Source of the DNA: a virus
Strand: one strand, 5' to 3'
Virus record (IMG/VR): IMGVR_UViG_3300020172_003222
Span: 1 to 33,493 of that record
DNA: 33,493 nt
This document shows positions 1 to 17,858 of the stretch, one piece after another; the stretch's first letter is position 1; each line of letters starts with the position of its first letter. The translations under genes and the position numbers were made by a program. A model generated the notes under the pieces. It searched no databases. It was not told the origin of the DNA and saw only the letters and a program-made list of their open reading frames with translations.

Positions 1-858
1 CATGCGAGTCTTATTCAAGGTACCTTTCTTGCCTACACGATCAGTTTTATATAGATCATCTGGACCTGCGACAGTTCTTCCACCAAGTTTATCAAAATCT
101 TGTGCTTTGCCGGTGTTTGATCTGATCTGTACTGTGATATTCTTTAACACCTTCATGGCATCACCAATGGAATCAAAAGTGTCATTTACATCACCGCTGT
201 GTTCACCGGCTCGGTCTTCGAACTCTATTTTTACACGACCAGTTTTTACATTGTGATAGACTGTTCCTTGAGCGTACCAACCGCCTTCACGGTCATCAAA
301 CACCCAAATTCTTATGTCAGGATTGTCTGATTCTTCTTCATGCCAGCCGGATAGATTGTCAATTGCTTGTGCAAAATCACCTTTACCTTCCGCCACACCT
401 TGCTCTTGTATTCTTGGGTCAGTAGATAATCTACGACCATACTTGTCCAGTTTTTTAAACACAATAGCAGCGACACGATTAAAGATTGTTGTGGAAATAT
501 TGTTTTTAGCAAAATAACGTTCTAACGCACGATAAATGGTACTATCATGGGCCATGTCATTTAACTTTGCCAAATTTTTATCAGTAATCAGTTTATCAGC
601 AATGTCTAGAGCCTGTCTATCCAAATCTTCTGCACCTTCCTCTACACCTTGCTGATCGTTAATCCAACCTTGATTAGTTTTTAAATCAAATTCACCAATG
701 GTGTCACCGGACCAGCTTTGCGCTACCATACGAACTCTATCCTTCTGTGGATGTACTTCGCCGCCTTGTGCAGCAACTTGATCACTCCAAGTGTCGTAGT
801 CCGATACTGCTTGTTTGCTTTCGGTCACTTTGGTGTTAAAAAAATCATTAATAAACAT
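1..858 (-). CDS. Hypothetical phage protein, partial (C-terminus outside window), possible internal head protein
   Basis: The frame is open from an ATG at 858 to the window edge (286 codons, no stop), so the C-terminus is missing. I do not recognise a catalytic family. The N-terminus MFINDFFNTKVTE is short, acidic and aromatic and resembles the leaders of proteins encoded just upstream, in a style reminiscent of T4 internal-head proteins; its V-T-E fits the gp21-type L/I-X-E cleavage rule less well than theirs. Two near-identical heptapeptides, QQGVEEG (residues 69-75) and EQGVAEG (152-158), bracket a helical segment. The part after residue 160 looks like a compact alpha/beta domain rich in W, G and D. 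The ATG overlaps the stop of the upstream gene by one base, with GAGG upstream as ribosome site, so it is probably translated by coupling. Confidence 0.8.
   Translation of the reverse strand, partial: MFINDFFNTKVTESKQAVSDYDTWSDQVAAQGGEVHPQKDRVRMVAQSWSGDTIGEFDLKTNQGWINDQQGVEEGAEDLDRQALDIADKLITDKNLAKLNDMAHDSTIYRALERYFAKNNISTTIFNRVAAIVFKKLDKYGRRLSTDPRIQEQGVAEGKGDFAQAIDNLSGWHEEESDNPDIRIWVFDDREGGWYAQGTVYHNVKTGRVKIEFEDRAGEHSGDVNDTFDSIGDAMKVLKNITVQIRSNTGKAQDFDKLGGRTVAGPDDLYKTDRVGKKGTLNKTRM
385..404 (-). repeat. 20-base direct repeat, copy 1 (encodes QGVAEG)
   Basis: It matches 634-653 at 18 of 20 positions in the same frame and orientation. It encodes the core of EQGVAEG in the gene at 1-858. The two copies are 249 bases apart. 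Confidence 0.7.
634..653 (-). repeat. 20-base direct repeat, copy 2 (encodes QGVEEG)
   Basis: Partner of 385-404, differing at two positions, both of which fall in the central codons. Encodes the core of QQGVEEG. Confidence 0.7.
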
Positions 859-1376
859 TATACAGTACCTCTTCTTGCTGCGGCCACTTGGCCCATTAAA
901 TCTTCTATCTGTCTACCTAATTGAACCTTTTGTGATTGCATATCACGCATTGTCATTGCCTTTTCCACAGGGTTAGCACCTTGTGGAAATTGTTTATTAA
1001 TTGCTGCAAGTTGACTTCTTGCACCTTGAATCTGTGCCAATAGATCATTGACTTGACCTTGTGCCTCGGCTTTACCGGCCAACTGTTGTTGACGTAGTGC
1101 AGCCTGTTCTTGTGGGTTAGTTCCTGTGTCATTACCAATGCCCGAACCTGGAGCTCCGTACTCGGCAAGATATTTCTCGTATTCTTGATACAGACTTTCT
1201 TCAATGCTTTCCGATGTACCGCCATCACCTACTAAACGACCAGCATAAGGATGCTTTTTGCCTCCGCCCTTCTTGGGCATTGGCTCACTGCCACGAACTT
1301 GGTCGCCAGGCTTCTGCCCGACTCGCTCGCCGGCAAATTTATTCATGCTCTCTAATAGGTCACGCATGTTGCTCAT
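858..1376 (-). CDS. Hypothetical phage protein with coiled-coil C-terminus
   Basis: 172 residues, no enzyme motif seen. The N-terminus MSNMRDLLESMNKF has an L-L-E that would fit a T4 gp21-type cleavage site. Residues about 30-50 are basic and glycine-rich (PKKGGGKKHPYAGRLVG), followed by an acidic helix (SIEESLYQEYEKYLAEYG). From about residue 85 it is Q/A-rich with a heptad-like pattern, probably a coiled coil. It sits between two genes with TAATG one-base overlaps on both sides, so the three are co-translated. Likely a virion or assembly protein by context; this is inference. Confidence 0.75.
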   Translation of the reverse strand: MSNMRDLLESMNKFAGERVGQKPGDQVRGSEPMPKKGGGKKHPYAGRLVGDGGTSESIEESLYQEYEKYLAEYGAPGSGIGNDTGTNPQEQAALRQQQLAGKAEAQGQVNDLLAQIQGARSQLAAINKQFPQGANPVEKAMTMRDMQSQKVQLGRQIEDLMGQVAAARRGTV

Positions 1377-2353
1377 TAGTAAACGCCTTTACCTACTGCG
1401 ACTTTTTTTGACTTGTGTGCATTACTAATTTTCTTTGGTACGCCCGATGTTGGCTTATGTCCAGGACCGCCCATACTTGTAGCAATGCTGCCTGAACTTG
1501 ATCCACCACCTGTGGCCATTTCACCAATAACTGCACTTGAGTTAGCTTTCTTTATATCATCGGGCGTAGCTCGCATTCCTGGTACCGTAGTTGTTGCAGT
1601 AGATGGAATGCCACTTTTTTGTGGAGCTGGGGCAGGACTCATTGCTACTTCTTTTACACCCTTACCAGCTGCCCACATTCTATCTTTAGCATCTTTTTTA
1701 GCAGATCTAGCTTGATCCGCAACATCTTTGGCTCCGCTACCTTTTCCTTTACCAGCTGCCCATCTATTAAGTTCTGCATCACGCTTGTCGTTACGAGCCT
1801 TTGCAAATTCGGTATTGGCGCCTTCATCCTCACCTAGACCAGCTTGTCCTGCAACAGCTTTACCTGTTGGCCTAGAACTTATTCCTGTGCGACTTGCTTT
1901 CATTTTGTCTCCACCGCCGCCAATATGTCTACTACCGCCTAAACGTTCTGATTTTCTTGGCTTATGTGTTTTACCTACTGTGGGTTTGTTCTTAGATAAG
2001 AAATTAGCTACAGCATCATCATAGTCATCTTCTACTAGCAATTGATCAAATGCATACTCTGCAGCTTCGGCAGTAAAGCCCATCATTGCCTGCTCTTGAC
2101 CATGCGCCATTTCGTGCATCAGATACTCGTGTACTGTACGTAAGTAGTCATTTGCTAGAGTAATCTTTTCGCTTACCCAGCCATCTAGTCCTTGTTGTTC
2201 GCTAATCTCTTTAAGCATACGATGTAGCTCAATTGCGTACTTGGCTGCACTATAGCAATCAGATCTGGCCATTTGTACTTCATGGTCAGCATGCATGTCA
2301 TCTGCTTCCTGTGCAATTTGGCTAGTTTCTACAATAAATTCTGTTGGTTTCAT
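1376..2353 (-). CDS. Hypothetical phage protein with internal repeats, possible internal head protein
   Basis: 325 residues. The first residues, MKPTEFIVETSQIAQEA, resemble the T4 internal-protein targeting peptide as I recall it (MKTYQEFIAEA) and contain I-V-E, a fit to the gp21 cleavage rule. Residues about 17-50 carry a helical segment (DDMHADHEVQMARSDCYSAA) of a type recurring in marine T4-like phages. The middle is low-complexity, basic and glycine-rich, with a duplicated (R/M)WAAGKG unit about 30 residues apart. The C-terminus is G/S/T/K-rich and probably disordered. A T4-late-type box lies at 2376-2383, giving a predicted 17-base leader. The function is not known; a DNA-associated internal protein is one possibility. 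Confidence 0.75.
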   Translation of the reverse strand: MKPTEFIVETSQIAQEADDMHADHEVQMARSDCYSAAKYAIELHRMLKEISEQQGLDGWVSEKITLANDYLRTVHEYLMHEMAHGQEQAMMGFTAEAAEYAFDQLLVEDDYDDAVANFLSKNKPTVGKTHKPRKSERLGGSRHIGGGGDKMKASRTGISSRPTGKAVAGQAGLGEDEGANTEFAKARNDKRDAELNRWAAGKGKGSGAKDVADQARSAKKDAKDRMWAAGKGVKEVAMSPAPAPQKSGIPSTATTTVPGMRATPDDIKKANSSAVIGEMATGGGSSSGSIATSMGGPGHKPTSGVPKKISNAHKSKKVAVGKGVY

Positions 2354-2375
2354 GTTAATTACCTATAATAATTAG

Positions 2376-2383
2376 TATTTATT
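2376..2383 (-). promoter_or_regulatory. T4-late-type promoter box AATAAATA
   Basis: Minus strand reads AATAAATACT, against the T4 late consensus TATAAATACT. The predicted start at about 2370 gives a 17-base leader to the ATG at 2353, with a weak AGG ribosome site. It overlaps the stop region of the upstream gene. Confidence 0.6.
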
Positions 2384-2687
2384 AGTTTACAATAAAGGTT
2401 AATACTTCACCAGTGGGCTCAATGCCGTGATTAGGATGAAGTGCATCAGTTCTTCCCTCAACGGTTAAATTATCTACTATAAATCTACCATGGCCCATGA
2501 CATTTTCAATTCTTAGTTTATGTATGCCAGGTTCTAGATCGCATACCATTTTTTCACGAATAAAGATTTTGTATTGTGGCCACCCAAATGTACGTTCAGT
2601 TAACAAATCACCGTTGACATATATCCTGTACACTGGTGCCTTGTCACTCCAATGCCCGTGTATGTCCAGGGATATGTGCTGTAACAT
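2382..2687 (-). CDS. Small beta-sandwich protein, carbohydrate-binding-module-like
   Basis: 101 residues, almost all predicted beta strand. The patterns VYRIYVNGDLLTERTF and LEPGIHKLRIENV are typical of compact beta-sandwich carbohydrate-binding modules (ligand-binding xylan-type modules show a similar layout). No catalytic residues and no signal peptide were seen. A second protein of the same general build is encoded at 3619-4086, on the other side of the nucleotidylyltransferase. The start overlaps the upstream stop by one base and has no clear ribosome site, so coupling is likely. A virion decoration or adhesin role is inference. Confidence 0.7.
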   Translation of the reverse strand: MLQHISLDIHGHWSDKAPVYRIYVNGDLLTERTFGWPQYKIFIREKMVCDLEPGIHKLRIENVMGHGRFIVDNLTVEGRTDALHPNHGIEPTGEVLTFIVN

Positions 2688-3589
2688 TATTTTTTTCTAC
2701 CACGGCAATGAGCACGTTGACTAAACCCTTTTGGATTGTTACAGTTGATGCTTTTTTTATACTTCGTGGACCATTTTTCTTTAACTTGTTCTAGCTCTTC
2801 TCGAAGCTTGTTGTAACGTTCAGTTAAACGATACCCCCGCATCATCTTAGGAAGTGTAGCAGCGGTTACATCATTATCGTCGCCCATTGTGGCCATGCTA
2901 TAACGTGGATCATTGCCGTCTTTAACTACACCAACCCCGGCTGCATCTTCAGTTACTGGGCGAGATATTTTGTCAAGTACGCGGCCTAGTTCTGCATCGT
3001 CCCTGCCGTACATTTGTAGTAAAAACTCACTGCGTTGCTTGGGGTCGTCGCGTACTAGGTTCCATACTTCGCGAGTTGGTGTACCGTGACTTACATCATA
3101 CTGTTTACCACCAATGGTAATAACCTTTTGTCTTTCGTTGGCCACAATAACGTATCCGTGCTTGTCGGCAGTGGCACATTCTTTTATACTTTTGAAAGTT
3201 TTGAAATAGCCCTCAGTACCATCCTTTTTAATACTATCCGGAGCTAGACGTTGTACATCCGGAGCACCTATTGCTGCTATAAAGATAGTGTTTGCGGGAT
3301 TAAATTGTGCGGGTAGTTTGTAAGGACTTACAACTTCTAATATACGATCGCTGGGTACGCCTGCGGCGTGCATCAAGGTACTTTTGTCACTGAAGTTAAA
3401 GGGGCTTTTTGGGAGTTCTGTTTTATTGCTGGTAGCGATATAGACGCTATCGCGCCCAAACTTGCTTTGCAGGCTCTGGAATACTTCTCCGTGCCCTAAA
3501 TGAAAAGGCTGAAACCGTCCTGGGTAAAGTACCACCAGTTGCGGTCCAGCCTCTGCGATATAACTTTCAAATAATTCAGCAATAAACAT
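2687..3589 (-). CDS. Nucleotidylyltransferase (NMN adenylyl-/cytidylyltransferase-like) with putative head-targeting leader
   Basis: 300 residues. Residues 18-33 carry VVLYPGRFQPFHLGH, the N-terminal nucleotide-binding region of the HxGH (30-33) nucleotidylyltransferase superfamily, which joins NMN, pantetheine phosphate or similar substrates to a nucleotide. The domain runs to about residue 190. The substrate cannot be assigned from sequence; NMN is one option since T4-like phages such as KVP40 encode NAD-synthesis enzymes. The leader MFIAELFESYIAE-A has the I-A-E/A pattern of a T4 gp21 prohead-protease site after residue 13, suggesting the enzyme may be packaged. The C-terminus ends in a basic Cys/His motif, CNNPKGFSQRAHCRGRKK. 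A late-type box CTAAATA is at 3611-3617. Confidence 0.85.
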   Translation of the reverse strand: MFIAELFESYIAEAGPQLVVLYPGRFQPFHLGHGEVFQSLQSKFGRDSVYIATSNKTELPKSPFNFSDKSTLMHAAGVPSDRILEVVSPYKLPAQFNPANTIFIAAIGAPDVQRLAPDSIKKDGTEGYFKTFKSIKECATADKHGYVIVANERQKVITIGGKQYDVSHGTPTREVWNLVRDDPKQRSEFLLQMYGRDDAELGRVLDKISRPVTEDAAGVGVVKDGNDPRYSMATMGDDNDVTAATLPKMMRGYRLTERYNKLREELEQVKEKWSTKYKKSINCNNPKGFSQRAHCRGRKK

Positions 3590-3610
3590 GAAAAATCCAT
3601 TCTATTGCTA

Positions 3611-3618
3611 TATTTAGC
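3611..3618 (-). promoter_or_regulatory. T4-late-type promoter box GCTAAATA
   Basis: Minus strand GCTAAATATAG, close to the CTAAATA late motif described for T4-like cyanophages. The predicted start at 3605 leaves a 16-base leader before the ATG at 3589. Confidence 0.5.
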
Positions 3619-4086
3619 TTAAAGGTTTTCTAGCAGCCAAATGTAAAAAGGGCTCTGAAATGGTAATCTCCATGTCCCATTCCACCCTAAAGTTACACAA
3701 CCAACTATATCTTTAACGCTTTTTTGATCTTGGTCTAGATAAGATTCGGGGTAGATTGGGTTATAAATGCTAACAGACCAAAGCAAACTTCCTAGATCAA
3801 TTTCATCTATTTCAATGCTATCAATGTTTAATAACATATCACCAATAATGCCGCCGTTACTATCTTGTACAGTATCTGCAGAATCTTTGTTTAATAGAGA
3901 AATTTGTAATTCATGCAGCTCTTCGGTTAAAGAAACATCAAATTCAAAATATTCAGTTACACCGGGTGCTTGGCTAAGAGTACCTTCTTGAACAATGTTT
4001 CCGTCAATTGCTATCAAAAACTTGGGCTGTTTTTTCTCACTGGACCCACTTAATCCTACTTTGAAATGTAATGTTTCTTTGTCCAT
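3619..4086 (-). CDS. Beta-sandwich protein, carbohydrate-binding-module-like
   Basis: 155 residues, mainly beta. The segment FLIAIDGNIVQEGTL followed by a strand-rich stretch and ELHELQISLLNKDSAD has the same layout as the smaller protein at 2382-2687 and suggests a related fold; identity between the two is low. The C-terminus is aromatic and hydrophobic (GWNGTWRLPFQSPFYIWLLENL region), which could be an oligomer or virion interface. Strong ribosome site AAGGAAT seven bases before the ATG. No enzyme motif. Family membership is by pattern only. Confidence 0.7.
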   Translation of the reverse strand: MDKETLHFKVGLSGSSEKKQPKFLIAIDGNIVQEGTLSQAPGVTEYFEFDVSLTEELHELQISLLNKDSADTVQDSNGGIIGDMLLNIDSIEIDEIDLGSLLWSVSIYNPIYPESYLDQDQKSVKDIVGCVTLGWNGTWRLPFQSPFYIWLLENL

Positions 4087-4095
4087 GCTTATTCC

Positions 4096-5052
4096 TTATG
4101 CTGGTGCTTTTTGTGCCATCTTGATAGCATCTTGTAACGCAGCCGGAGTACCTGCATCCATTGGTGGAGCATCACCAGTTGGACCAAACTGAGGCATCTT
4201 GGCAAGATCGCCAACAAACTCGTAGTGCCCAATATGGTTCAAGAGTACTTTGCCGTGTGCCCAGATTTCCCCACCAAGCGCACTCCATCTACGGCAGAAT
4301 AACCAATCTTCAGACAGGTAGTGTCCTTTTTCGTCAATTTCACAATCAAAGATGCTAAACATTGTAGGCTCATACTGTTTACCTAAACCAACATCATCAA
4401 CATACTTGCATTCTGGATGTGCTACACATAGTTGCTCGTATACGTGGCGTTTAAATAATAAGAATCCAGTACCCATTGTGTCTACAGTAAAGATATCACC
4501 CTGTACTTTAGTTTCACGACGTAGATTAATAACGTAGTTAACTGGCAATGCTTTCTTAGGATACAATCCGCCAATGACATCTTTATCACAGGCCATCATT
4601 TGTAGTATAGATTCTGGTTGGAATCGAATGTCAGCGTCAATGAACATAAAGTGTGTAGCAGCCTTGTTGGTCATCATCTTGGCCATCAAGTTATTACGAG
4701 CTCTAGTAACCAAACTTTCGTTAACCATGGTATCCAGTGACCAGTTTAACCCTACTTGTTGAGCCATAAGAATAAAACGCAACAATGATGTCATTGTGGG
4801 TTCGCTTACGTTACCACCGTAACAGGGCATACCAATATGTAAATGACATTTAGCAAAGTCAAATGGTTGTCCCTGTTGTTGTTCCGGGGCTTGATTTTGT
4901 TTTGCCGCTGCAGCCTTAATCATGGCAACTGCATCCATTGGACTTTGTGATGGTGTTTCGCTTGCAGAACGTGCTGCGGCCGCTGCTTTAATTGCTGCTA
5001 CCGCGTCGGCTTGAGTAGAGGCGCTGGTATCGCCGATTACTTTTTTGGTCAT
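4096..5052 (-). CDS. Glycosyltransferase-like protein (GT-A fold)
   Basis: 318 residues. After an alanine-rich N-terminal arm with a duplicated unit (DAVAAIKAAAA at about 16-26 and DAVAMIKAAAA at 40-50), a domain begins at about residue 68 with HIGMPCYGG. FMFIDADIRF (about 135-144) contains the DxD-type motif DAD (139-141) that binds metal and sugar nucleotide in GT-A glycosyltransferases. GGLYPKK and TVDTMGTGFLLFKR follow as expected for this group, and EDWLFCRRW is a probable acceptor/catalytic region. It could modify a virion protein, DNA or host glycan; the substrate is unknown. Ribosome site AAGAGAG. Between two beta-sandwich/CTS-type genes and a 54-residue ORF. Confidence 0.8.
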   Translation of the reverse strand: MTKKVIGDTSASTQADAVAAIKAAAAARSASETPSQSPMDAVAMIKAAAAKQNQAPEQQQGQPFDFAKCHLHIGMPCYGGNVSEPTMTSLLRFILMAQQVGLNWSLDTMVNESLVTRARNNLMAKMMTNKAATHFMFIDADIRFQPESILQMMACDKDVIGGLYPKKALPVNYVINLRRETKVQGDIFTVDTMGTGFLLFKRHVYEQLCVAHPECKYVDDVGLGKQYEPTMFSIFDCEIDEKGHYLSEDWLFCRRWSALGGEIWAHGKVLLNHIGHYEFVGDLAKMPQFGPTGDAPPMDAGTPAALQDAIKMAQKAPA

Positions 5053-5078
5053 TGATTTCTCTCTTGGTTAAAATTTGA

Positions 5079-5243
5079 TTATGCTTTGCTTACTTCGACA
5101 ACAACCCCGCTGCCGAGTAATTCTTCTGTCACAGAACCCAATGCTGCGATAACGTCATCGCCGGCAATAGCTGTTTCTGATTCGTCGTTTTTGACTAATT
5201 TACTAATTGTGATTACGATCACTTCTTCTTGAATTTTGGCCAT
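5079..5243 (-). CDS. Small acidic hypothetical protein (54 aa)
   Basis: ATG at 5243 to TAA at 5079-5081. It begins MAKIQEEVIVITISKLVKND and is rich in V, E and I, with two or three beta strands and a short helix. The ribosome site AAGGACACC lies at normal spacing, and a late-type box AATAAATACTG (5267-5274) precedes it, which makes it a real gene despite its size. No known domain. Likely expressed late, with the glycosyltransferase-like gene 26 bases downstream. Confidence 0.75.
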   Translation of the reverse strand: MAKIQEEVIVITISKLVKNDESETAIAGDDVIAALGSVTEELLGSGVVVEVSKA

Positions 5244-5266
5244 TTTGGTGTCCTTGAATATAACAG

Positions 5267-5274
5267 TATTTATT
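5267..5274 (-). promoter_or_regulatory. T4-late-type promoter box AATAAATA
   Basis: Minus strand AATAAATACTG. The predicted start at 5261 gives an 18-base leader that contains the AAGGA ribosome site of the 54-residue ORF. Confidence 0.6.
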
Positions 5275-5989
5275 CCTGTATATATACCAGCTCACAAACT
5301 TCTCTAATAATATCTGGATTAATAATACGTACCAAATTGGCTACTCCGGGATCGTTAGTGTAGAAATAACAGCCCCACATCCAATCCCCGGATCTAGTTA
5401 ATTGTTCTTCAGTATTCGAAGTCATCTTTACTAAATCACCAAGGCTTACAAGATAGTTGTGTATTTGGGCTCTTGACGTTATGTCAAACCGTTTTTCTTT
5501 AAAGTAAACACGATATTTGAATTCTGGTTGCCGTTTTACCAAAACAGCGTTGCTCTTCAAGATGTTTTCTTTGAAACTGCTCTCCGGGCCTGTAGCCGAA
5601 ATGATATGATGTCTATAATCAGGACTGATAGATTTAGCCACACTTTGCAGCATGATCTCGCAGTCAGCATAAATGGATACTTTTGGTTCTTCTGTTCGAA
5701 TCCTTACATCAGGATACTCATAAAATATATCTTTAAGGGCATGTAAAAATCCCAAATCCGCAGTAGCCAGAATCTCTTTTAATCTTTTATCCCACCAGGA
5801 TCCACCGTAGTTATAATCTCGTGCAAAAGATTTTCTACGAGCAATGTTTGCACCTATATCGTCACTGCGAATGCTTTTGCATCCGGGTGCATGAATCTCT
5901 AATCGATATAGATATTGTTTGTAAAACTGCTTGGAAGTATACTCTATCTTTATATTGTTAGATAGGCTCTTCCAGAACGATGTATCCAT
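5270..5989 (-). CDS. Hypothetical phage protein
   Basis: 239 residues, mixed alpha/beta, no motif I recognise. It is rich in aromatic residues (for example SGDWMWGCYFYTNDPG near residue 205) and has several charged pairs but no signal peptide or membrane segment. The ATG at 5989 lies inside the 3' end of the clpA-like gene, a 32-base overlap; the next Met is more than 100 residues in, so this start (or a nearby non-ATG one) must be used. The upstream ribosome site is weak, suggesting translational coupling to the ClpA-like protein. Confidence 0.75.
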   Translation of the reverse strand: MDTSFWKSLSNNIKIEYTSKQFYKQYLYRLEIHAPGCKSIRSDDIGANIARRKSFARDYNYGGSWWDKRLKEILATADLGFLHALKDIFYEYPDVRIRTEEPKVSIYADCEIMLQSVAKSISPDYRHHIISATGPESSFKENILKSNAVLVKRQPEFKYRVYFKEKRFDITSRAQIHNYLVSLGDLVKMTSNTEEQLTRSGDWMWGCYFYTNDPGVANLVRIINPDIIREVCELVYIQE

Positions 5990-8237
5990 TTTCGTCTATT
6001 CTGTGAGTTGTGTCTGTGTTAGCAATTGGCTGAAATGTAAATTCTTTATCATGAAAATCAATTACAACGGTGCTCAGCGGGGCAATTTTGTCAAACAGTA
6101 TACGCTTACTCAATGGTACTTTGATAAAATCATTGATTTTTCTTTGTAAAGGTCTTGCTCCCATCTTGGGATCAAACCCTTGATTAACCAATTCATCAAC
6201 AGCAGATTCAGTTAGTCTAACACGTAACTGCTTGTCTGTCAACAAGTCATTTAATTCACCAATGAACTTGCTGACAATCTTACGCATACTTAGGTCATCA
6301 AGTTTAGCAAACTTAACAATACCATCTAAGCGATTACGGAATTCAGGTTTAAAGAAGTCCTTAACTGCTTTGTCATCTTCGCCAGACTTCTGTAGTTCTT
6401 TGGTAAATCCAATTGTGTTACGTTCATTGTCTGCAGCGCCAAGATTACTGGTTAGAATGACAATGGCATTACGGCAGTCAGCTTTCTTACCGTTACTGCT
6501 AGTAATAGTACCTTCGTCCATCATTTGTAGTAAAATATTACTAACATCAGGGTGCGCTTTTTCAATTTCATCCATCAATATAATACAGTTGGGATTTTTT
6601 TCAATGTCACTGATTAGTAATCCGCCGCCAAGATTACCATCTTCGTAGCCCACATATCCCGGGGGTGCACCAATAAGTTTGGCTACAGTGTGCTTTTCTT
6701 GATATTCACTCATGTCATAGCGCAACAACTTCATGCCAAGATTCTCTGCCAGCAACTTTGCTAGTTCTGTTTTACCAGTACCAGTTGGTCCCAGGAACAA
6801 GAAGTTACCAATTGGCTTGCTCAATGATTTTAATCCTGCACGACTGACATATATTTTTTCTAGTACAGTATCTACGGCAGTATCTTGTCCGTACAGTCGA
6901 TCTTTAACATTTACCTCCAGGCTTTCGATTCCTTTGGCACCTTCGGTATTTCCAATTTGTTCAACAGGAATCCTAGTTAGTCTACTAATAGTATTAATGA
7001 TAACAGCACGATCCACAGTCCAAATAGCATTTTTAATCTTTAACTTAGCACAGGAAGCATCTATTAGATCAATTGCTTTATCTGGAAGCTTTTTATCTGT
7101 TTGATAACGCACACTTAGTTCAACTGCTGCGTCAATAGCATCGTCAGTAATACTACCGCCATGGAATTTTTCAAAGTTTAATCTAAGTCCATACAGGATT
7201 TCTTTGGCTATATCGGAACTAGGTTCGTCAATTGTAACACGCTGGAAACGGCGCATCAATGCACGATCCTTTTCAAAGCTCTGGCTGTATTCTTCCCATG
7301 TAGTACTTGCAATAACTTTAATGCGGCCTTTGCTTAATGCAGGCTTAATCATGTTACTAAAGTCTACACTGCTTTGATTACCTGCACCTGCACCCCGCAT
7401 CTGATGTGCTTCATCAATGAATAAAATACATTTACCTTTGACATTTAGTGCTGCAAGAATTTCGTGAATCTTTTCTTCAAAGTCGCCGCGGTACTTGCTG
7501 CCTGCAAGTAAACTGCTAATGTCAAGATTGTATACAGTATAGTCTAGTAGATATTCTGGTACCATTTTTAATACAATGGCCAAAGCCAATCCCTCGGCAA
7601 TGGCAGTTTTACCTACACCAGGATCGCCAACCATCAATACGTTACTTTTATTTCTACGTGCCAGAACTTCTACAATCTCGCTAGTTTCACCAGCCCGACC
7701 AATAACAGGATCTATTTTACCCTCTTCGGCCTGTTTGTTTAAGTTATCGCAGTAGTGTTCTAATATTTTGTCAGCTTGGCCTGCACTGGCCACAGCCTTG
7801 CTTGCGTCACTCTTGTATCCTTTGTTGTACATTTCGGCAAGTTGATTTCGATCTAGGCCGTATTTGATCATGAAATAATGTGAATAACTATTTGTTTCGG
7901 CATGCACACTCACAAATAAATCCATTAGTTGTAGATGTGTCCTTCCACTAAACAAAACCTGAGTAAGAGCACGATTAAACACTCGCTCAAGAGCATGTGT
8001 TTTCTTTGGATCACCATTGGTTGATATTAGGTATACTTGTTCTATTAAATAGTCGTTTAAGTCAGTCTCTAATCCTTGGACGTCGGTACCAAAAGAAATC
8101 AAAAATTCTTTAAAGGGTTCGTAACGTACCATGGATAAAAATACATGTTCTAAAGTTACATACTCATGACTTAGTTGACGAGCTATATCTGTAGATTCCT
8201 GTACAATATGATCTATTTCTGGATTGGTCTGTAACAT
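5958..8237 (-). CDS. clpA: ClpA-like AAA+ unfoldase
   Basis: 759 residues, the same length as bacterial ClpA (about 758). An N-domain (1-145) is followed by two AAA+ modules: D1 with Walker A GDPGVGKT (204-211), Walker B LFIDEA (about 272-277); D2 with Walker A GPTGTGKT (483-490), pore loop GYVG (527-530), Walker B ILMDE (about 553-557) and sensor-2 GARPL (693-697). There is no ClpB-type middle domain, and an IGF tripeptide (609-611) sits where ClpA/ClpX carry the loop that docks on ClpP. It should therefore unfold proteins and could feed host ClpP; no ClpP gene is in the window. Directly downstream of dnaJ. No ribosome site is visible; a late-type box AATAAATA ends five bases from the ATG. 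Confidence 0.95.
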   Translation of the reverse strand: MLQTNPEIDHIVQESTDIARQLSHEYVTLEHVFLSMVRYEPFKEFLISFGTDVQGLETDLNDYLIEQVYLISTNGDPKKTHALERVFNRALTQVLFSGRTHLQLMDLFVSVHAETNSYSHYFMIKYGLDRNQLAEMYNKGYKSDASKAVASAGQADKILEHYCDNLNKQAEEGKIDPVIGRAGETSEIVEVLARRNKSNVLMVGDPGVGKTAIAEGLALAIVLKMVPEYLLDYTVYNLDISSLLAGSKYRGDFEEKIHEILAALNVKGKCILFIDEAHQMRGAGAGNQSSVDFSNMIKPALSKGRIKVIASTTWEEYSQSFEKDRALMRRFQRVTIDEPSSDIAKEILYGLRLNFEKFHGGSITDDAIDAAVELSVRYQTDKKLPDKAIDLIDASCAKLKIKNAIWTVDRAVIINTISRLTRIPVEQIGNTEGAKGIESLEVNVKDRLYGQDTAVDTVLEKIYVSRAGLKSLSKPIGNFLFLGPTGTGKTELAKLLAENLGMKLLRYDMSEYQEKHTVAKLIGAPPGYVGYEDGNLGGGLLISDIEKNPNCIILMDEIEKAHPDVSNILLQMMDEGTITSSNGKKADCRNAIVILTSNLGAADNERNTIGFTKELQKSGEDDKAVKDFFKPEFRNRLDGIVKFAKLDDLSMRKIVSKFIGELNDLLTDKQLRVRLTESAVDELVNQGFDPKMGARPLQRKINDFIKVPLSKRILFDKIAPLSTVVIDFHDKEFTFQPIANTDTTHRIDENGYIVLEEPI

Positions 8238-8242
8238 AAAGA

Positions 8243-8250
8243 TATTTATT
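8243..8250 (-). promoter_or_regulatory. T4-late-type box AATAAATA placed for a leaderless clpA message
   Basis: Minus strand AATAAATATCTTTATG. With the T4 late spacing (+1 six bases after the box) the first transcribed base is the A of the ATG at 8237. No Shine-Dalgarno-like run is present. Confidence 0.5.
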
Positions 8251-8265
8251 AGGTTGTTGGTGGAA

Positions 8266-9123
8266 TTAAATGGTACGTAGAATTTCTAGCTGATTGCTGG
8301 TTAAGTCTGTTGGAACAATTAAGTTAACAACCACGATCAATGACCCACGGTGATTTTGATTCATCAAGTACAACCCTTGTTGAGGAATTCTAAATTTGGT
8401 ATTGTTTTGTGTACCCGGTGGCATAGTAATAGTAAACTTTTTACCATCAAGGCCTTCAACAAAAATATCATGCCCAGTTATTGCATAGATGCAATTAACA
8501 TCAACTGTTTTAACTAAGTCTATGTTGTCAACATAGAAATTTGGATTGCCTTCGACGTGTAATCTAATATATAAATCACCACGAGCCAAAGTGGCAAAAA
8601 AGTTATCACCCAGGCCCGGATACTTGATTGTACTGTTGGGTCGAACTCCTCTAGGTATCTGTACTTCTACGGTACTGCGTTCTCCGTTGGTAGTCTGAAC
8701 ACTGATAGTTTTTGTTTGAGCATCTAAGGTACTAGCCAAGGAAACAACTACATCAACCTGCATGTCTTTGTTTTTTCTTGGCTGTCTGAACTGTGCAAAT
8801 GGATCTCCGTGTGCTGCAAAACCTGGACCAAAACTGAATCCAAAGTTACGTAACATCTCCTCCATGTGCCGAGGCATTCCGTCACCGCCAACATCTTGTC
8901 CGTTTACACTAAAATGAAATCCACCGTGTCCGCGACGTTCGCCATCATACTGAGCACGTTTTTGCTCGTCACCGATTGCGTCATAGGCCGCTTGTATTTG
9001 CTGGAATTGATTTGTGTCGCCGCCCTTGTCGGGGTGATGTTGATTGGCTAATTTACGATAGGCCTTTTTAATTTCATCCAGACTGGCAGACTCAGGAACT
9101 CCTAAGGTATCATAGTGTGTCAT
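8266..9123 (-). CDS. DnaJ-family co-chaperone (CbpA-like, type II)
   Basis: 285 residues. J domain at 1-70 with the HPD motif at 30-32 (HHPDKGG), which stimulates Hsp70 ATPase. A short Gly/Phe-rich linker (about 65-115) follows, then a CbpA-type C-terminal peptide-binding region (about 120-275). The zinc-finger cysteines of full DnaJ are absent. It would recruit host DnaK, perhaps for virion assembly or to work with the ClpA-like protein encoded 28 bases downstream. The start follows the DnaJ family pattern (MTHYDTLGV). It has no ribosome site; the promoter at 9130-9158 puts +1 on the ATG. Confidence 0.93.
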   Translation of the reverse strand: MTHYDTLGVPESASLDEIKKAYRKLANQHHPDKGGDTNQFQQIQAAYDAIGDEQKRAQYDGERRGHGGFHFSVNGQDVGGDGMPRHMEEMLRNFGFSFGPGFAAHGDPFAQFRQPRKNKDMQVDVVVSLASTLDAQTKTISVQTTNGERSTVEVQIPRGVRPNSTIKYPGLGDNFFATLARGDLYIRLHVEGNPNFYVDNIDLVKTVDVNCIYAITGHDIFVEGLDGKKFTITMPPGTQNNTKFRIPQQGLYLMNQNHRGSLIVVVNLIVPTDLTSNQLEILRTI

Positions 9124-9129
9124 AGTAAT

Positions 9130-9158
9130 ATTATATAGTATAAATGAAATACGGTCAA
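9130..9158 (-). promoter_or_regulatory. Sigma70-type promoter of dnaJ (TTGACC-17-TATAAT)
   Basis: The -35 TTGACC is at 9153-9158 and the -10 TATAAT at 9130-9135, separated by exactly 17 bases. The predicted +1, seven bases after the -10, is 9123, the A of the dnaJ ATG. The -35 lies in the 3' arm of a perfect inverted repeat (9150-9178). Confidence 0.75.
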
Positions 9159-9178
9159 TACTTTTGGCATTGACCGTA
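9150..9178 (-). terminator. Perfect 10-bp inverted repeat, terminator or operator
   Basis: TACGGTCAAT and ATTGACCGTA form a perfect 10-base stem with a 9-base loop. On the minus strand it is followed by TTTCATTT, a poor U-tract, so it is a weak terminator after the gene at 9197-9385, or a binding site overlapping the dnaJ -35. Confidence 0.55.
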
Positions 9179-9196
9179 CGATTGAGTTACAGCGTA

Positions 9197-9385
9197 TTAC
9201 TTCTTCTTACCATCTGGAATTGCAGTGCCTTCAAGTTTCTTGTGAACCTTGATAGTTTTGCAAACTTCTTTTTCCTTCTTGGTTTTTGGATCCATTTGCT
9301 TTACGCAGGCTTTTTTAGTTTCTGCTTCGGCATATACTGCTGTGGTTGCAAATAAACCAATCATAATTGCTAATAGATATTTCAT
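9197..9385 (-). CDS. Small secreted basic protein (62 aa)
   Basis: A Sec signal peptide (MKYLLAIMIGLFATTAVYA, cleavage after A-Y-A-type site near residue 19) leaves a mature lysine-rich peptide of about 43 residues with two cysteines (in ACVKQ and EVCKT) that could form one disulphide in the periplasm. It has no lipobox. The start overlaps the stop of the upstream holin-like gene by four bases (ATGA); ribosome site AAGGAAGAG. Its place at the end of the lysis block suggests an envelope role, but the function is unknown. Confidence 0.75.
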   Translation of the reverse strand: MKYLLAIMIGLFATTAVYAEAETKKACVKQMDPKTKKEKEVCKTIKVHKKLEGTAIPDGKKK

Positions 9386-9609
9386 TTTTTCTCTTCCTTT
9401 TTAATAAATTTTTCTGCAGATGTAAATCCCAATCCACCAATTACAATATACATCATTGTGTCAATGGTAGGTTGACTCACTTTCATACCATAGAACAATT
9501 CAGTAATAAAACTAGTACCAAGTAATAAAAAAGCCAAAAAGGCAATAGTCCTTTTACTACTAGGATTACTATCGCCTTCTGCTTTTAGCATATCAGTCAT
9601 AAAGCTCAT
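9382..9609 (-). CDS. Small membrane protein, holin candidate
   Basis: 75 residues with two predicted membrane segments (about 21-41, TIAFLAFLLLGTSFITELFYG, and about 48-65) joined by a short loop, an N-terminal polar stretch and a charged tail ending KKEEKK. This is the layout of class II holins, which permeabilise the inner membrane and release the endolysin. The GH19 endolysin gene is 0.7 kb upstream in the same transcript. Strong ribosome site AAGGAAAAT. The neighbouring 148-residue membrane protein is an alternative holin. Confidence 0.6.
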   Translation of the reverse strand: MSFMTDMLKAEGDSNPSSKRTIAFLAFLLLGTSFITELFYGMKVSQPTIDTMMYIVIGGLGFTSAEKFIKKEEKK

Positions 9610-9621
9610 ATTTTATTTTCC

Positions 9622-10068
9622 TTAAATTTCTGGAAAAGCTGGCTGAGTTGGAGCTGGCTTGCCATTTACTATTTGTACTGCATCATTAGTTGGTGCTGCT
9701 GCCATTGCTGGTGCTGGACTAAAGCTAGGTGCCGGTGCAGCCATAGGAGGCGGTGGGGGTGGTGTGTACGGTTTAGTTGCAGCATCAATCGCTTTACCAC
9801 GCAAATCTTTGTCATCACCGGCCAACATGATACCTGACAATGTACCAGTCAAGAATGTAGCAACGGGAATAATAAGCTCAAAGAACTTGTTATCAACCGG
9901 ACTCATTCCGTTCATGGGTTGTGTAACAAAAATCAAACTGAACAAAACAACAAACACAATACCAAATAGTGTTAAACCTAAGATGATACCGATGAAAAAC
10001 TTCAATCGTGCATTTAGTTCATCGGTTGTGTACTTCTCTCCTGACCATAATTGTTGAATCATTTGCAA
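9622..10068 (-). CDS. Membrane protein with proline/alanine-rich tail, second holin candidate
   Basis: 148 residues. Two hydrophobic segments (about 23-50, FFIGIILGLTLFGIVFVVLF, and about 62-82) are followed by a hydrophilic region and a Pro/Ala-rich tail (TPPPPPPMAAPAPSF and onward), probably extended. It could be a holin, antiholin or membrane anchor in the lysis block. Ribosome site AAAGGAGAT at ideal spacing; the start overlaps the upstream lipoprotein gene by 10 bases. Confidence 0.65.
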   Translation of the reverse strand: MQMIQQLWSGEKYTTDELNARLKFFIGIILGLTLFGIVFVVLFSLIFVTQPMNGMSPVDNKFFELIIPVATFLTGTLSGIMLAGDDKDLRGKAIDAATKPYTPPPPPPMAAPAPSFSPAPAMAAAPTNDAVQIVNGKPAPTQPAFPEI

Positions 10069-10304
10069 TCTCCTTTAGATGTATTTTTTTGTGGTGCTTG
10101 TAGTGGTACCACAGGTTGAATAGGGTTACCTGCTTTATCTTTTTGGTAGTGTTGTAAGTCTTCGGGGCAAGTTCCGTTCGCACTACAGAACGGTTTCTTA
10201 CACTCTTGGCTGTCCCAGTTATTTGGATCCTGGCAAGGATACCGATAGCGTTCATTACATGCCATGAGAGCGAAAGGTAATACTAGAAGTAGTAGATATT
10301 TCAT
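10059..10304 (-). CDS. Small lipoprotein (81 aa)
   Basis: A signal sequence MKYLLLLVLPFALMAC with lipobox L-M-A-C, lipidated on Cys16, predicts an envelope lipoprotein. The mature part has several cysteines (YPC, KKPFC, GTC) that suggest two disulphides, followed by a short hydrophilic tail. Lies between the endolysin and a holin candidate. It is not the best o-spanin candidate, because the classical adjacent pair is at 11487-12199. Role unknown. Confidence 0.7.
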   Translation of the reverse strand: MKYLLLLVLPFALMACNERYRYPCQDPNNWDSQECKKPFCSANGTCPEDLQHYQKDKAGNPIQPVVPLQAPQKNTSKGDCK

Positions 10305-10305
10305 A

Positions 10306-10920
10306 TTATGCCCCTAACACATGCAACATGTGATTGTAATGCTTGATACGATCATCCAGGCCAATATAACCACCGTTAATCTTTTTGGTCATTTGCTTGA
10401 TATCACCAGCATCGGCTTCTTTGTTTAAGTTGTTACTTTCCCAGAACCAACATGCTGATTGTGCAGCACCTTCGAATGTTTCCAAGTATGCACTGGCTTC
10501 TTCGGGTTTGACTTCAATACTGGCAGCAAACCATTCATAGTTTGTCTTGCCGGTCAATTGAATTAGGCCACGCCCACGATATTTAAAGCCATCGCCCGAG
10601 GCTTCGTCTCCGTTGCCCATACGATTCGCATAGATTTTATTTGCAATCTTTGCAGGTTGCTTTTCATAAGCTTTAGCAGTAGACATGTCTGAAAAATATT
10701 TTGCAAATATTTTCATTAGACTTTCTGCTTTATAATTCAAGTTCTCGGACAAAAACTTAAATCCGCCTGATTCATGAGCACACTGAGCGACGAATGCTGC
10801 TACACGCTTGGGTGTGTTAATTTCATAATCAGGTAATAGTTGATTAAGAGCCTCAACCCAATGGTCAGCATACGGAATACCTGGAACCATTTCTTTTAAT
10901 TGACTTACCGTTAATTGCAT
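10306..10920 (-). CDS. GH19-family endolysin (chitinase/lysozyme-like)
   Basis: 204 residues, a complete glycoside hydrolase 19 domain. CAHESGGF (47-54) holds the catalytic acid E50; a second catalytic Glu is probably E59 (SENLNY). GDGFKYRGRGLIQLTGKTNY (about 109-128) is the GH19 substrate-groove signature. Phage GH19 enzymes cleave the glycan strand of peptidoglycan at the end of infection. There is no signal peptide, so a holin is needed for release. Ribosome site AAAGGAGATGAA. Centre of the lysis block. Confidence 0.92.
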   Translation of the reverse strand: MQLTVSQLKEMVPGIPYADHWVEALNQLLPDYEINTPKRVAAFVAQCAHESGGFKFLSENLNYKAESLMKIFAKYFSDMSTAKAYEKQPAKIANKIYANRMGNGDEASGDGFKYRGRGLIQLTGKTNYEWFAASIEVKPEEASAYLETFEGAAQSACWFWESNNLNKEADAGDIKQMTKKINGGYIGLDDRIKHYNHMLHVLGA

Positions 10921-10934
10921 TTCATCTCCTTTTA

Positions 10935-11123
10935 TTAAACTACTGCCATCGCTACATTACATGCCTGTACAATATACCTAAACATTTCTTCATTGCCTGC
11001 ACATTCCTGTGCAGCCTGAATGTCTCTTACTTCCTGCAACATGTAATCACGTTCATCTTTGGTTATATTACCAAATTGATATTCTAATTGTATATTTTGT
11101 ATCGTTTGTTCTAGTGGATGCAT
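10935..11123 (-). CDS. Small hypothetical protein conserved in T4-like phages
   Basis: 62 residues, predicted all-helical, pattern MHPLEQTIQNIQLEYQFGNI then KDERDYMLQEVRDI and a C-terminal MFRYIVQACNVAMAVV helix. I recall similar short ORFs in marine T4-like phages but no function. Ribosome site AAAGGGAGAT. Between the endolysin and a lipoprotein gene, one base from the latter. Confidence 0.7.
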   Translation of the reverse strand: MHPLEQTIQNIQLEYQFGNITKDERDYMLQEVRDIQAAQECAGNEEMFRYIVQACNVAMAVV

Positions 11124-11124
11124 T

Positions 11125-11490
11125 TTATCTCCCTTTCCATGCAGACTTTGCTGCTTCTATTCTTTGTGCGGCGGTCTTCTTGCCTAGTTCACAGAACGTC
11201 TTACTGCCACCGTGACTCATACGTTCTGCATGATTTAACAATCCTTTGAGATTGTCTGCTTGAGGATCACCACGCCATGCTGCTGAGCGGGATAAATGAT
11301 TTGATACTTCTACTACTTGACTCCAGTCTGGCTGACCGCAATCAATCATTTCAACTGCAATACTTAGAGTTACTAAATGATCAAACATTACCGGATCATG
11401 ATCTCTTGGCCAGTATTTCTTAACTGTGTCCACTGTAGCACAGCCTGATAATGCGATTGCTAATGCAGCGATAGTTATTATTTTTTTCAT
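11125..11490 (-). CDS. Lipoprotein (121 aa)
   Basis: MKKIITIAALAIALSGC is a signal peptide with lipobox L-S-G-C (Cys17). The mature 105 residues are mainly helical with two cysteines (IDCGQPD and TFCELGK). The start overlaps the previous gene by four bases (ATGA), so it is probably translated by coupling with the o-spanin candidate. An outer-membrane lipoprotein of the lysis block; not assigned to a family. Confidence 0.75.
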   Translation of the reverse strand: MKKIITIAALAIALSGCATVDTVKKYWPRDHDPVMFDHLVTLSIAVEMIDCGQPDWSQVVEVSNHLSRSAAWRGDPQADNLKGLLNHAERMSHGGSKTFCELGKKTAAQRIEAAKSAWKGR

Positions 11491-11750
11491 TTTACGCTAT
11501 CAAAGTTTTCTTTTTGTTTAATGTACCACTCTTTCCACATCTCGTAACGTTGTACAAGTTCTCTATACTTGCCGTAGTTGTCTGCGGAGTTAGAAATTAA
11601 CTTATCTAAGTCGGTTGTATTTGATGGAAGTGGTTCTAGTATAGGTGCAGGTTCAAACATAAATGGATCTGCATCAGGAAATTTACGTTTAACAGGAACA
11701 GCGGTTGTACAGGCAGCAAGGAACACAGTTAACAGTAATAAATATCTCAT
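11487..11750 (-). CDS. Outer-membrane lipoprotein, o-spanin candidate
   Basis: 87 residues. MRYLLLLTVFLAAC has lipobox L-A-A-C (Cys14). A proline-rich segment (ADPFMFEPAPILEPLPSN, about 26-44) precedes a helix ending in KQKENFDSVK. Small size, lipidation, proline-rich linker and a four-base overlap with the upstream two-membrane-segment coiled-coil gene match the i-spanin/o-spanin layout used by phages of Gram-negative hosts to fuse the two membranes after endolysin action. The assignment rests on architecture, not on homology. Confidence 0.65.
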   Translation of the reverse strand: MRYLLLLTVFLAACTTAVPVKRKFPDADPFMFEPAPILEPLPSNTTDLDKLISNSADNYGKYRELVQRYEMWKEWYIKQKENFDSVK

Positions 11751-12199
11751 TTGCTGTCCTCTGCAGGTCCTGTGACGCCTTTGTTATACATTTCAACTGC
11801 TGTAGGATTTAACTTACAGCCTTCGTTGATAATTTCGCGTTTAATTTCAATTTCTTTCTTGATAACTTCAACTCCGCGTTTAACTATAAGTATCTTGTCC
11901 TTGTATTTTGTTACTATTTCTTTAGTGATTACGGGAGCCTTTTCCTCAGACTTTCTAATTTCTTCTTGTAGTCGTTCAGTTTCTCCACGCCACCACATTT
12001 CAGTACTATACCCGCCGTACCAGTACACGCCAGCAGTCAGCAACAGAATAGATAAAATCTGTATAGGTGTTCTATAGATGTTTATAAAGGGAATGAAACG
12101 AATTACGTAGCTGATAATAACACCAGCAACGCCTAGGGCTATTGCTGCGTAAACTACGTATAAAATAAAACTATCTGGTAAAAAGTGTAGTACCCACAT
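11747..12199 (-). CDS. Membrane protein with coiled coil, i-spanin candidate
   Basis: 150 residues. Two hydrophobic segments (about 9-31 and 44-62) are followed by a long charged heptad region (about 73-123, rich in K, E and I) with a single late Cys. The coiled-coil periplasmic part and the overlapping lipoprotein gene downstream fit an inner-membrane spanin; the second membrane segment is unusual for Rz-type proteins. First gene of the lysis block, with its own late-type box (12218-12225) and a hairpin covering its ribosome site (12201-12217). Confidence 0.65.
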   Translation of the reverse strand: MWVLHFLPDSFILYVVYAAIALGVAGVIISYVIRFIPFINIYRTPIQILSILLLTAGVYWYGGYSTEMWWRGETERLQEEIRKSEEKAPVITKEIVTKYKDKILIVKRGVEVIKKEIEIKREIINEGCKLNPTAVEMYNKGVTGPAEDSK

Positions 12200-14949: not shown

Positions 14950-15645
14950 TTACCAACCGTAAGCGTCGGCTACTAGTTGTTTACCATCGTCGGCGGCAGT
15001 AGTGTTCTTGCAGCTGATGTCATACAAGTCTTTACGCATTTGTGCAACTAGTGCTTCGATACGTGCTTGCTCTGCTTCGGTAACGACTAGCTTTTCTAAA
15101 GCACGAGCACCAATCTTGCTGTGGAAACCTTCGTCCTTGGCAATCTTGGCGTATGCGCTAGAAATAAACTCATCTTCGATACACTCAGCCATTTGATTCC
15201 ACACGGCCTCTGCACGACCTTCAGCAACTAACTGATAAGCAGCTAGGGCAGCAGCGTCGTCTTGTGCATCGTATTTTTGTAGTAGGCTGGCACCTTTAGC
15301 TGTGGGCTTTGCAGCTTCAGCAGCGATAGCAGCTTGTACGTCAACTGGTGAGCCTTGAATATGTTCGATTACTTCTTTAACTAAGCGGAAATGTACAGCT
15401 TCGTCGTGTGCCTGTTGAGTTAACAGTTGTAGTTCAACTGGGTCAGCATCTGCAGGCATGTTAGCTACTTGTTGAGCAATTTCAACCATATTCATACGTT
15501 CGTTGATCATGCGACCGATGAAATGTTCTACTAGCTCTTCTTTAGCCGGCTTGCTATCAAAGTAAGCCTTTACGTTGTGTTGACTAGCACGGAAAAGTGC
15601 TTGATTTTCATCAACGATTTTCTTTACAAATTGTTTTGCGTCCAT
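14950..15645 (-). CDS. Ferritin-like diiron protein (probable oxygenase/oxidase)
   Basis: 231 residues, all helical. Two ExxH motifs, E82-AV-H85 and E172-GF-H175, on separate helices, with candidate ligands E49 (INERMN) and E142 (VAEGRAE), make up the canonical four-Glu, two-His diiron site of ferritin-like oxygenases, desaturases and R2-like proteins. The substrate is unknown. A strong ribosome site AAGGAGATCC and a late-type box CATAAATA (15674-15681), plus its own terminator, suggest high late expression. Alanine-rich and more optimal in codon use than its neighbours, as expected for an abundant protein. Not ribonucleotide reductase: too short and no R1 nearby. Confidence 0.8.
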   Translation of the reverse strand: MDAKQFVKKIVDENQALFRASQHNVKAYFDSKPAKEELVEHFIGRMINERMNMVEIAQQVANMPADADPVELQLLTQQAHDEAVHFRLVKEVIEHIQGSPVDVQAAIAAEAAKPTAKGASLLQKYDAQDDAAALAAYQLVAEGRAEAVWNQMAECIEDEFISSAYAKIAKDEGFHSKIGARALEKLVVTEAEQARIEALVAQMRKDLYDISCKNTTAADDGKQLVADAYGW

Positions 15646-15673
15646 GTAGGATCTCCTTGTGTATATACTTAAA

Positions 15674-15681
15674 TATTTATG
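15674..15681 (-). promoter_or_regulatory. T4-late-type promoter box CATAAATA
   Basis: Minus strand CATAAATATT. The predicted start at 15668 leaves a 23-base leader containing AAGGAG for the diiron gene. Confidence 0.6.
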
Positions 15682-15693
15682 TTATTTTGGCTA

Positions 15694-16371
15694 TTATTTT
15701 AGATTAGCCGGATCTGTTATATTGCGTTCTTTGTATGGCCTACGACCTGCTCGAATATGCTCATCTAACCAGTGTGTCTCTATTGGTGTAATATATTTAT
15801 GATTAGCGTCTTTTTCCACGAAGTCATATATAGAATCGCTATCCCACGCAATAGGAAAATTCATTATTTTTGACAACCATTTAAGATAATGCTTTCCGTG
15901 AAGGAAAAACGCCTCGTGATCCACAAAATGTACAGTATGTTCGCTGTTTAGGATGTTATCGTAATAATACTCTTGTGCTGTTGCTAGTGAACTAAACCCA
16001 TTCATCAGGCGTTGCTGCTGTACTGTATTGATATTTTTATCACGTACAATTATAGCAATAGTTACTTGTACACCTAGTTCTTGAGCACGATCAGCGACTT
16101 CACGTATTTTAGGAATAATACGTGTACCATCCATATACACTGGGCAAGATACGTTAGCCAGGAAGTATTGGCTATTGGCAAATTTTTCCGATGTGAGTCG
16201 CTCAGGGAATCGCCAATATTCTGCAAATGGTTCTATATCGCTAGGTACCCAATATTCTTTTTTGAGATCTTCCCATCCCTCAACATCTGGGTGCTGACTT
16301 AGAATTCTACTAAAAAGATGATTACCTGAACCTTGTGGTCCGGTAACAATTAATAAATGTTTGTTTGACAT
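15694..16371 (-). CDS. Sulfotransferase-like P-loop protein
   Basis: 225 residues. LLIVTGPQGSGNHLFSRIL (about 6-24) is a P-loop with a following helix and HPDVEGWED, like the phosphosulfate loop of phage and bacterial sulfotransferase-like proteins. VTIAIIVRDKN (about 102-112) resembles the second (R-containing) phosphosulfate-binding strand. It could also be a divergent P-loop kinase. Ribosome site AAGGATAGC. In the same transcript as two other P-loop proteins and the diiron protein. Confidence 0.65.
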   Translation of the reverse strand: MSNKHLLIVTGPQGSGNHLFSRILSQHPDVEGWEDLKKEYWVPSDIEPFAEYWRFPERLTSEKFANSQYFLANVSCPVYMDGTRIIPKIREVADRAQELGVQVTIAIIVRDKNINTVQQQRLMNGFSSLATAQEYYYDNILNSEHTVHFVDHEAFFLHGKHYLKWLSKIMNFPIAWDSDSIYDFVEKDANHKYITPIETHWLDEHIRAGRRPYKERNITDPANLK

Positions 16372-16380
16372 GTGCTATCC

Positions 16381-17192: not shown

Positions 17193-17205
17193 AATAAGTA
17201 ATTAT

Positions 17206-17730: not shown

Positions 17731-17777
17731 TCCAGTATAATCAAATTTCTATAGTCATTAAATGAACAATTCTAGTC

Positions 17778-17785: not shown

Positions 17786-17858
17786 TTTGCGTGGACTTAT
17801 TGACAAGCCCACTAACTGGCAAATGTCAACAGAACCACCATACAAAAAGGAGGCAGTC

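Follow-up and report, generated by a model that had tools for sequence, protein, structure and literature searches.

Leader peptides and recurring GVAE|G linkers point to a cluster of probable head-cargo genes in a T4-like jumbo phage

Why should neighboring genes of an uncultured phage, one of them predicted to encode an enzyme, all begin with a short peptide resembling the capsid targeting sequence (CTS) of bacteriophage T4? This question is raised by one end of IMGVR_UViG_3300020172_003222, of which the whole stretch analyzed here (33,493 nt; hereafter the window) comes from a record that is a 33-kb fragment only. Five adjacent genes lie on the minus strand at positions 1–3589, and the proteins of four of the five start with conserved leaders of about 8–14 residues, ending in hydrophobic-x-Glu before a small residue, as in the T4 CTS; the reading frames and N-termini that the initial annotation described there are borne out by our own reading of the open reading frames (ORFs). 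We consider it probable that the cluster encodes the head cargo of a T4-like jumbo phage, partly in the form of modular polyproteins that would be cut by the prohead protease gp21 and injected together with the DNA. What appears to be new is a linker, [QKE]GVAE|G (the bar marks the predicted cut), recurring inside the large leader-bearing proteins at the borders of apparently swapped modules; these putative internal sites did not figure in the initial annotation. The features of the cluster are as follows.

2687..3589, minus strand: predicted nicotinamide-nucleotide adenylyltransferase (NMNAT)-like nucleotidylyltransferase, 300 amino acids (aa), N-terminus MFIAELFESYIAEAG (PF01467, 27.9 bits against a cut-off of 21)
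3566..3589, minus strand: leader of the enzyme, MFIAELFE, residues 1–8, with the cut likely after E8 (conservation in 20 relatives)
2690..2809, minus strand: C-terminal tail of the enzyme, KYKKSINCNNPKGFSQRAHCRGRKK, a module present in cyanophages too (sequence search)
2382..2687, minus strand: 101-aa protein inside the cluster, with no leader (conserved neighbor in relatives)
1376..2353, minus strand: 325-aa protein with a HEVQMAR domain, beginning MKPTEFIVET; leader MKPTEFIVE at 2327–2353
858..1376, minus strand: 172-aa protein, beginning MSNMRDLLESM; leader MSNMRDLLE at 1350–1376 (LLE/LVE/LME in relatives)
1..858, minus strand: large modular protein, N-terminus MFINDFFNTKVTES; partial, 286 aa within the window and truncated by its end
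820..858, minus strand: leader of the large modular protein, MFINDFFNTKVTE (orthologues with MFIND-type leaders)

A loose leader rule, [LIVMF]-x-E within about 15 residues, is matched by 17% of the other ORFs (≥80 aa) in relatives, which we take as the chance background; the occurrence of matches in four of five adjacent genes therefore has P = 0.0035, a chance test that is thin if taken alone. Among the genes between the enzyme and the DNA polymerase in five relatives, 34 of 68 match the rule versus 139 of 823 elsewhere (odds ratio 4.9), with a pooled p of 3e-9 that is optimistic because the five genomes are related to each other. As a stand-alone predictor the rule was discarded, in view of this background and of its failure to distinguish virion genes from the others in a stretch of cyanophage S-SCSM1. 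At the level of sequence, what settles that the leaders exceed chance is their retention across orthologues in about 20 contigs, where the residues downstream diverge. The P1 Glu is conserved in the nucleotidylyltransferase, HEVQMAR, and QKPGDQ families. For the enzyme, M1, I3, A4, L6, F7, and E8 are kept in ≥90% of 20 relatives, whereas residues 9–13 are variable and missing from distant members, and the cut is therefore likely to follow LFE8 (LFE|S) and not IAE13. The latter site, which the initial annotation had favored, has been abandoned for lack of conservation, whereas the Glu residues that it named in the 325-aa protein (E9) and the 172-aa protein (LLE) coincide with the conserved ones: most relatives of the former have the leader MK.T[ED]F[IV].E, with IVE, IKE, or VKE at positions 7–9, and those of the latter keep LLE, LVE, or LME. 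In the fourth family, represented by the 1–858 protein with orthologues of 297–993 aa, the leader is of a longer, MFIND type and mostly ends in hydrophobic-x-Glu (LNE, ITE, and VTE).

The cluster in relatives extends beyond the point where the window ends, and the further leader-bearing proteins whose existence had been envisaged are encoded there, with up to about ten such genes at the same place. Contig G002 adds the N-termini MKYRELLEACW, MRNLIRLVEAA, and MKTHEFAS, and G036 adds MRASEFITEN, MRADEFVAEAW, and MRINQLLESLN; among about ten leader-bearing genes of G019, one product begins MRYQEFIIE|AG, almost the same as the MKTYQEFIAE|A with which T4 IPII and IPIII begin, as read in this analysis.

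The initial annotation was right in regarding one member of the set as a nucleotidylyltransferase: PF01467 is matched above the cut-off, and the catalytic (H/T)xGH motif is intact (GRFQPFHLGH). The nearest solved sequences in the PDB are NMNATs, a fold search with the enzyme gave weak matches only, all within the same superfamily, and in the predicted structure the confidence score (pLDDT) is about 90 in the catalytic core and below 50 in leader residues 1–13. From its sequence the protein is assigned to the Rossmann-type HIGH-superfamily nucleotidylyltransferases as an NMNAT-like member, which may be an NMN adenylyltransferase or catalyze another nucleotidyl transfer. Its Cys- and Lys-rich tail recurs in otherwise different cyanophage proteins, in 15 Synechococcus and 2 Prochlorococcus phage records. 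The small protein p108 of cyanophage S-SM2 combines the leader MKTLKQFLKET with the same C-terminal tail, its neighbor p109 has a HEVQMAR-type domain in common with the 325-aa protein of the window, and both are located between gp16 and gp17. As a separate observation, a nucleotidylyltransferase fused to a second large domain occurs in Microcystis phage Mel-JY01 (L067 7923–9842) and in an uncultured phage of 484 kb (L066 14584–17331), with the gene for the large terminase a few genes downstream of it; this terminase gene is annotated in Mel-JY01 and recognized by resemblance in the 484-kb phage. Two further proteins of the 484-kb phage (L066 18930–19250 and 20004–20609) start with MKIKESEIKELIRSTIQEE and MRVLMEKQERKLREFIRRKVHNLLNE, possibly representing a different, longer family of head leaders.

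NMNAT-like/cytidylyltransferase enzymes have been detected by mass spectrometry in purified virions of three cyanophages: T4-GC190 of S-SM1 (PMC3037559), ORF154 of S-CREM2 (PMC10665884), and ORF91 of S-SCSM1 (PMC9602691), with possible carry-over from the lysate noted by the authors of the S-CREM2 and S-SCSM1 proteomes. These enzymes start with MKKFSAFLNE|A, MKNFSSFLTE|A, and MKSFLQFLKE|A, that is, with leaders of the T4 type, in which M1, K2, F4, F7, L8, E10, and A11 are invariant at 37–48% overall identity; the leader is their best conserved part outside the catalytic core and is not pointed out in the passages of the three reports consulted. As a side observation, S-CREM2 ORF155 and ORF156 (L324 3992–5226) adjoin the virion enzyme and are listed as virion-detected as well (PMC10665884, Table 3), a small cluster resembling the one in the window.

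A gp21-like protease, which the initial annotation had expected in the same genome, is missing from the window fragment and present in relatives. The PF03420 profile for the gp21-type (S77) protease, which detected the positive controls S-SM2 and T4, gave no match on the 33-kb fragment or on the 20 nucleotidylyltransferase-bearing contigs first found, all of them fragments; a PF07068 search for gp23, made without a positive control, gave none on the 20 closest contigs. When gp46 was followed to further contigs, PF03420 was matched on 17 of 26 gp46-related contigs, and gp21 occurs together with a nucleotidylyltransferase gene on three contigs (G030, G034, and G036), among which the 354-kb G030 carries the same leader cluster. 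Contig G021, related through its gp46 (93% identity) to the nucleotidylyltransferase-bearing G011, has gp21, gp22, and gp23 in a row. Alignments place probable cut sites of this clade at LME|A or LAE|N near the T4 cut position in gp23, and at LAE|G/S or LTE|S near the end of gp22.

Within the large proteins of the leader cluster the peptide QGVAEG recurs, and it was seen nowhere else in the relatives, nor was it found in the literature searched. Both copies in the window are within the partial protein 1–858.

385..402, minus strand: linker QGVAEG, DNA CAAGGTGTGGCGGAAGGT, containing the 17-mer described below without a mismatch; GVAE|G is the predicted site for the prohead protease
634..651, minus strand: second linker, QGVEEG, whose DNA differs from the 17-mer at two positions; 0.01 chance matches expected in the window

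The linker [QKE]GVAE|G fits the consensus of prohead cut sites as well as the clade's own gp22 and gp23 sites. Its variants keep GVAE while the ends change ([QKE]GVAE[GAEDSV]), and the tripeptides VAE, VSE, and VTE are enriched 15.8-, 3.3-, and 2.3-fold in these proteins, permuted tripeptides not being enriched. Several proteins have no residues between leader and linker (MFINDFFNKK-QGVAEG, MRINEILVE-QGVAEG, and MKTLREYINLIESAE-QGVAEG). When IMG/VR was scanned for EQGVAEG with a codon-degenerate pattern, at least 119 stretches were obtained; among the matches listed, a loose-rule leader is present in 48 of 79 proteins with near-canonical linker DNA (p = 3e-16 against the 17% background) versus 0 of 8 with other codons, the first count being somewhat generous because it allows alternative starts. 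Also among the matches listed, gp21 is carried by 4 of the 5 contigs longer than 100 kb that were checked.

The DNA of the linker, the 17-mer CAAGGTGTGGCGGAAGG, is nearly invariant, against codon usage: among relatives selected without regard to the motif, about 17 of the 23 linker copies read CAA GGT GTG GCG GAA, in genomes where GCG accounts for 6% of the codons for Ala and GTG for 18% of those for Val. A single 18-mer accounts for 54% of 203 linker copies, while other conserved peptides of the same genes reach only 5–22%. All 144 unique exact copies stand in one reading frame, and the 36 core copies on contigs selected independently of the motif, where chance would give about 0.07, are without exception in frame within cluster proteins. 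Peptide and DNA are therefore both constrained or recently copied. A purely DNA-level signal (Chi-like, origin, or promoter) was rejected, the 17-mer never being seen outside these genes or off-frame, as was an internal ribosome site, no start codon following the linker in the sites inspected.

With the motif masked, the ends of local similarities between proteins were scored within 10 residues of QGVAEG, where 232 of 1974 module ends fall versus 115 ± 22 at random positions. Several modules have the motif at both borders and differ in their neighbors; L253 and L256, for example, share such a module at 97% identity. Single polypeptides contain several distinct swappable domains, shared with differing neighbors. 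The Pfam matches of nine linker-bearing proteins include GNAT, NT5C-like, and DUF6321 domains and no peptidase domain. Short Cys/basic modules (KVKSRY.VWPSAYASGALV.CRK.GA.NWGNKSKK; CW.GYEKKGT..LFGK.YN.CVKKE; DUF6321) are found repeatedly in these proteins as well as in cyanophage T4-GC 119, with examples at L002 12759–14792 and L045 21802–23928.

In the predicted sequence of events, the leader would bind the prohead core, by analogy to the T4 IPIII leader, which is enough on its own to carry a foreign protein into the head (PMC9026906); a gp21-type protease would then cut after the leader Glu, and the freed proteins would remain in the head and enter the host with the DNA. At the start of infection, the NMNAT-like enzyme may act on nicotinamide adenine dinucleotide (NAD) or a related nucleotide. 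The 1–858 protein and its relatives would consist of swappable modules joined by [QKE]GVAE|[GASD] linkers, which gp21 most likely cuts too; with the linkers cut by the same protease, one leader would therefore carry several separate mature proteins. The least certain step is the use of the DNA element as a joint for in-frame module swapping. We tentatively suggest, while leaning slightly against it, that the 17-bp element is recombination joint and protease site at once, forming a cassette system for virion cargo: modules would be swapped in frame at the 17-bp repeat and every new joint would encode a GVAE|G prohead-protease cut, and thus injected proteins could be added behind one leader without a new signal.

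Several points weigh against cut and injected head cargo. The window phage and all QGVAEG-bearing phages are known here from their genes alone, and gp21 is absent from the window fragment and from the closest nucleotidylyltransferase-bearing contigs. Chance matches to the loose leader motif are frequent, with 8 of 18 non-virion ORFs in the S-SCSM1 stretch conforming to it; the nucleotidylyltransferases of G036 and L278 have no leader, although GVAE linkers are present in L278; and the residue composition around QGVAEG shows no difference from the protein average, giving no sign that the linker is exposed. The window enzyme has only the superfamily core in common with the virion-detected enzymes (61 columns, hhalign probability 71%), and the two may therefore not be orthologues, so that the cyanophage evidence is support by kind, not by orthology.

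Other explanations of the same data deserve weighing. The leaders may be real head-targeting signals with QGVAEG a mere spacer or recombination joint, the large proteins being packaged whole, as are the polyvalent proteins, which have been described as large packaged multidomain proteins (PMC5512222). The conservation of the linker DNA far beyond the needs of the peptide does point to a role at the DNA level; we nevertheless regard this explanation as unlikely, given the single frame of the 144 unique copies (which descent through recombination could partly explain), the variants keeping GVAE while flanking residues change, the enrichment of VSE and VTE, which are not part of the repeat, and the fit of the peptide to the clade's own gp22 and gp23 sites. 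It is rather improbable that the cluster encodes scaffold proteins of the core or structural proteins of the head that are cut and for the most part lost during maturation, like T4 gp67, gp68, and gp22, instead of delivered cargo: gp21 sites occur in T4 core proteins too (PMC9026906), and phages can carry head enzymes without known function, but one protein of the cluster is an enzyme with an intact catalytic motif, the modules include GNAT and NT5C-like domains, and the contents vary greatly among relatives, unlike scaffold genes. Improbable, too, is that the short N-termini have no role in the head and are amphipathic starts of an ordinary kind, the permissive motif coinciding in an intracellular host-takeover gene cluster. 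Such a coincidence would agree with the motif background, with the mixing of virion and non-virion genes in the S-SCSM1 stretch, and with the lysate carry-over allowed for by the proteome authors (PMC9602691, PMC10665884), but not with the conservation of the P1 Glu and leader residues over orthologues, the leader of the cyanophage enzymes being better conserved than anything else outside their catalytic core, the near match to the T4 CTS in a relative (MRYQEFIIEAG), and the presence of gp21 in relatives.

The proposed head cargo is worth comparing with known systems. It resembles T4 IPI, IPII, IPIII, and Alt in the short leader with hydrophobic-x-Glu before a small residue, in several unrelated cargo proteins having the same leader type, and in a gp21-type protease, found here in relatives; it differs in that the cargo genes form one cluster near the DNA polymerase gene, one of them encodes an NMNAT-like enzyme, and some encode long modular chains with repeated internal sites. 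We know of no repeated internal cut sites in the T4 internal proteins. For the large proteins, the nearest published idea is that of the polyvalent proteins of phages and conjugative elements (Iyer et al. 2017, PMC5512222), which likewise are large and multidomain, with swapped effector-like domains, and are thought to be packaged and injected; their processing is assigned to fused zincin-like metallopeptidases (frequent, not universal), whereas here a repeated gp21-type site lies between modules and the nine proteins lack a peptidase domain among their Pfam matches. The virion-associated enzymes of S-SM1, S-CREM2, and S-SCSM1 also place a HIGH-superfamily nucleotidylyltransferase behind a T4-type leader; in contrast to the window enzyme, with which only their catalytic core aligns, two of the three have a long linker after the leader, and none has GVAE linkers. 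Giant phages SPN3US and phiKZ deliver head proteins that a prohead protease cuts after Glu (A-x-E, S-x-E; PMC5694885), but mostly with long propeptides (>100 residues), another cut consensus, and no repeated inter-module linker. If the proposed reading is true, head-carried proteins of T4-like jumbo phages, most of which are at present labeled hypothetical, could be marked and their mature ends predicted by sequence alone; QGVAEG, with its at least 119 stretches in IMG/VR, would be a search key for injected cargo across environmental viruses, and linker plus leader could be put to use as natural tags for packaging and release. A route is also suggested by which phages may assemble new arsenals of early-acting proteins.

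A megablast search of window positions 1–12000 against known phages gave no match. The window encodes a ClpA-like ATPase, DnaJ, long fiber-like proteins, and a gp44-like clamp loader, the last judged by eye, and its relatives encode gp46 and gp21–gp23, together with a DNA polymerase assigned by N-terminal resemblance; from this gene content, its own and that of its relatives, the window phage is placed among T4-like jumbo phages of uncultured bacteria. Giant ORFs of 4200–4700 aa lie in an apparent baseplate region of three contigs (G004 81916–96075, L049; G011 20389–33093; G019 15213–29051). Finally, the enzyme gene is flanked by genes for two leaderless small proteins (2382–2687 and 3619–4086, minus strand), which match no family and accompany it in most close relatives.

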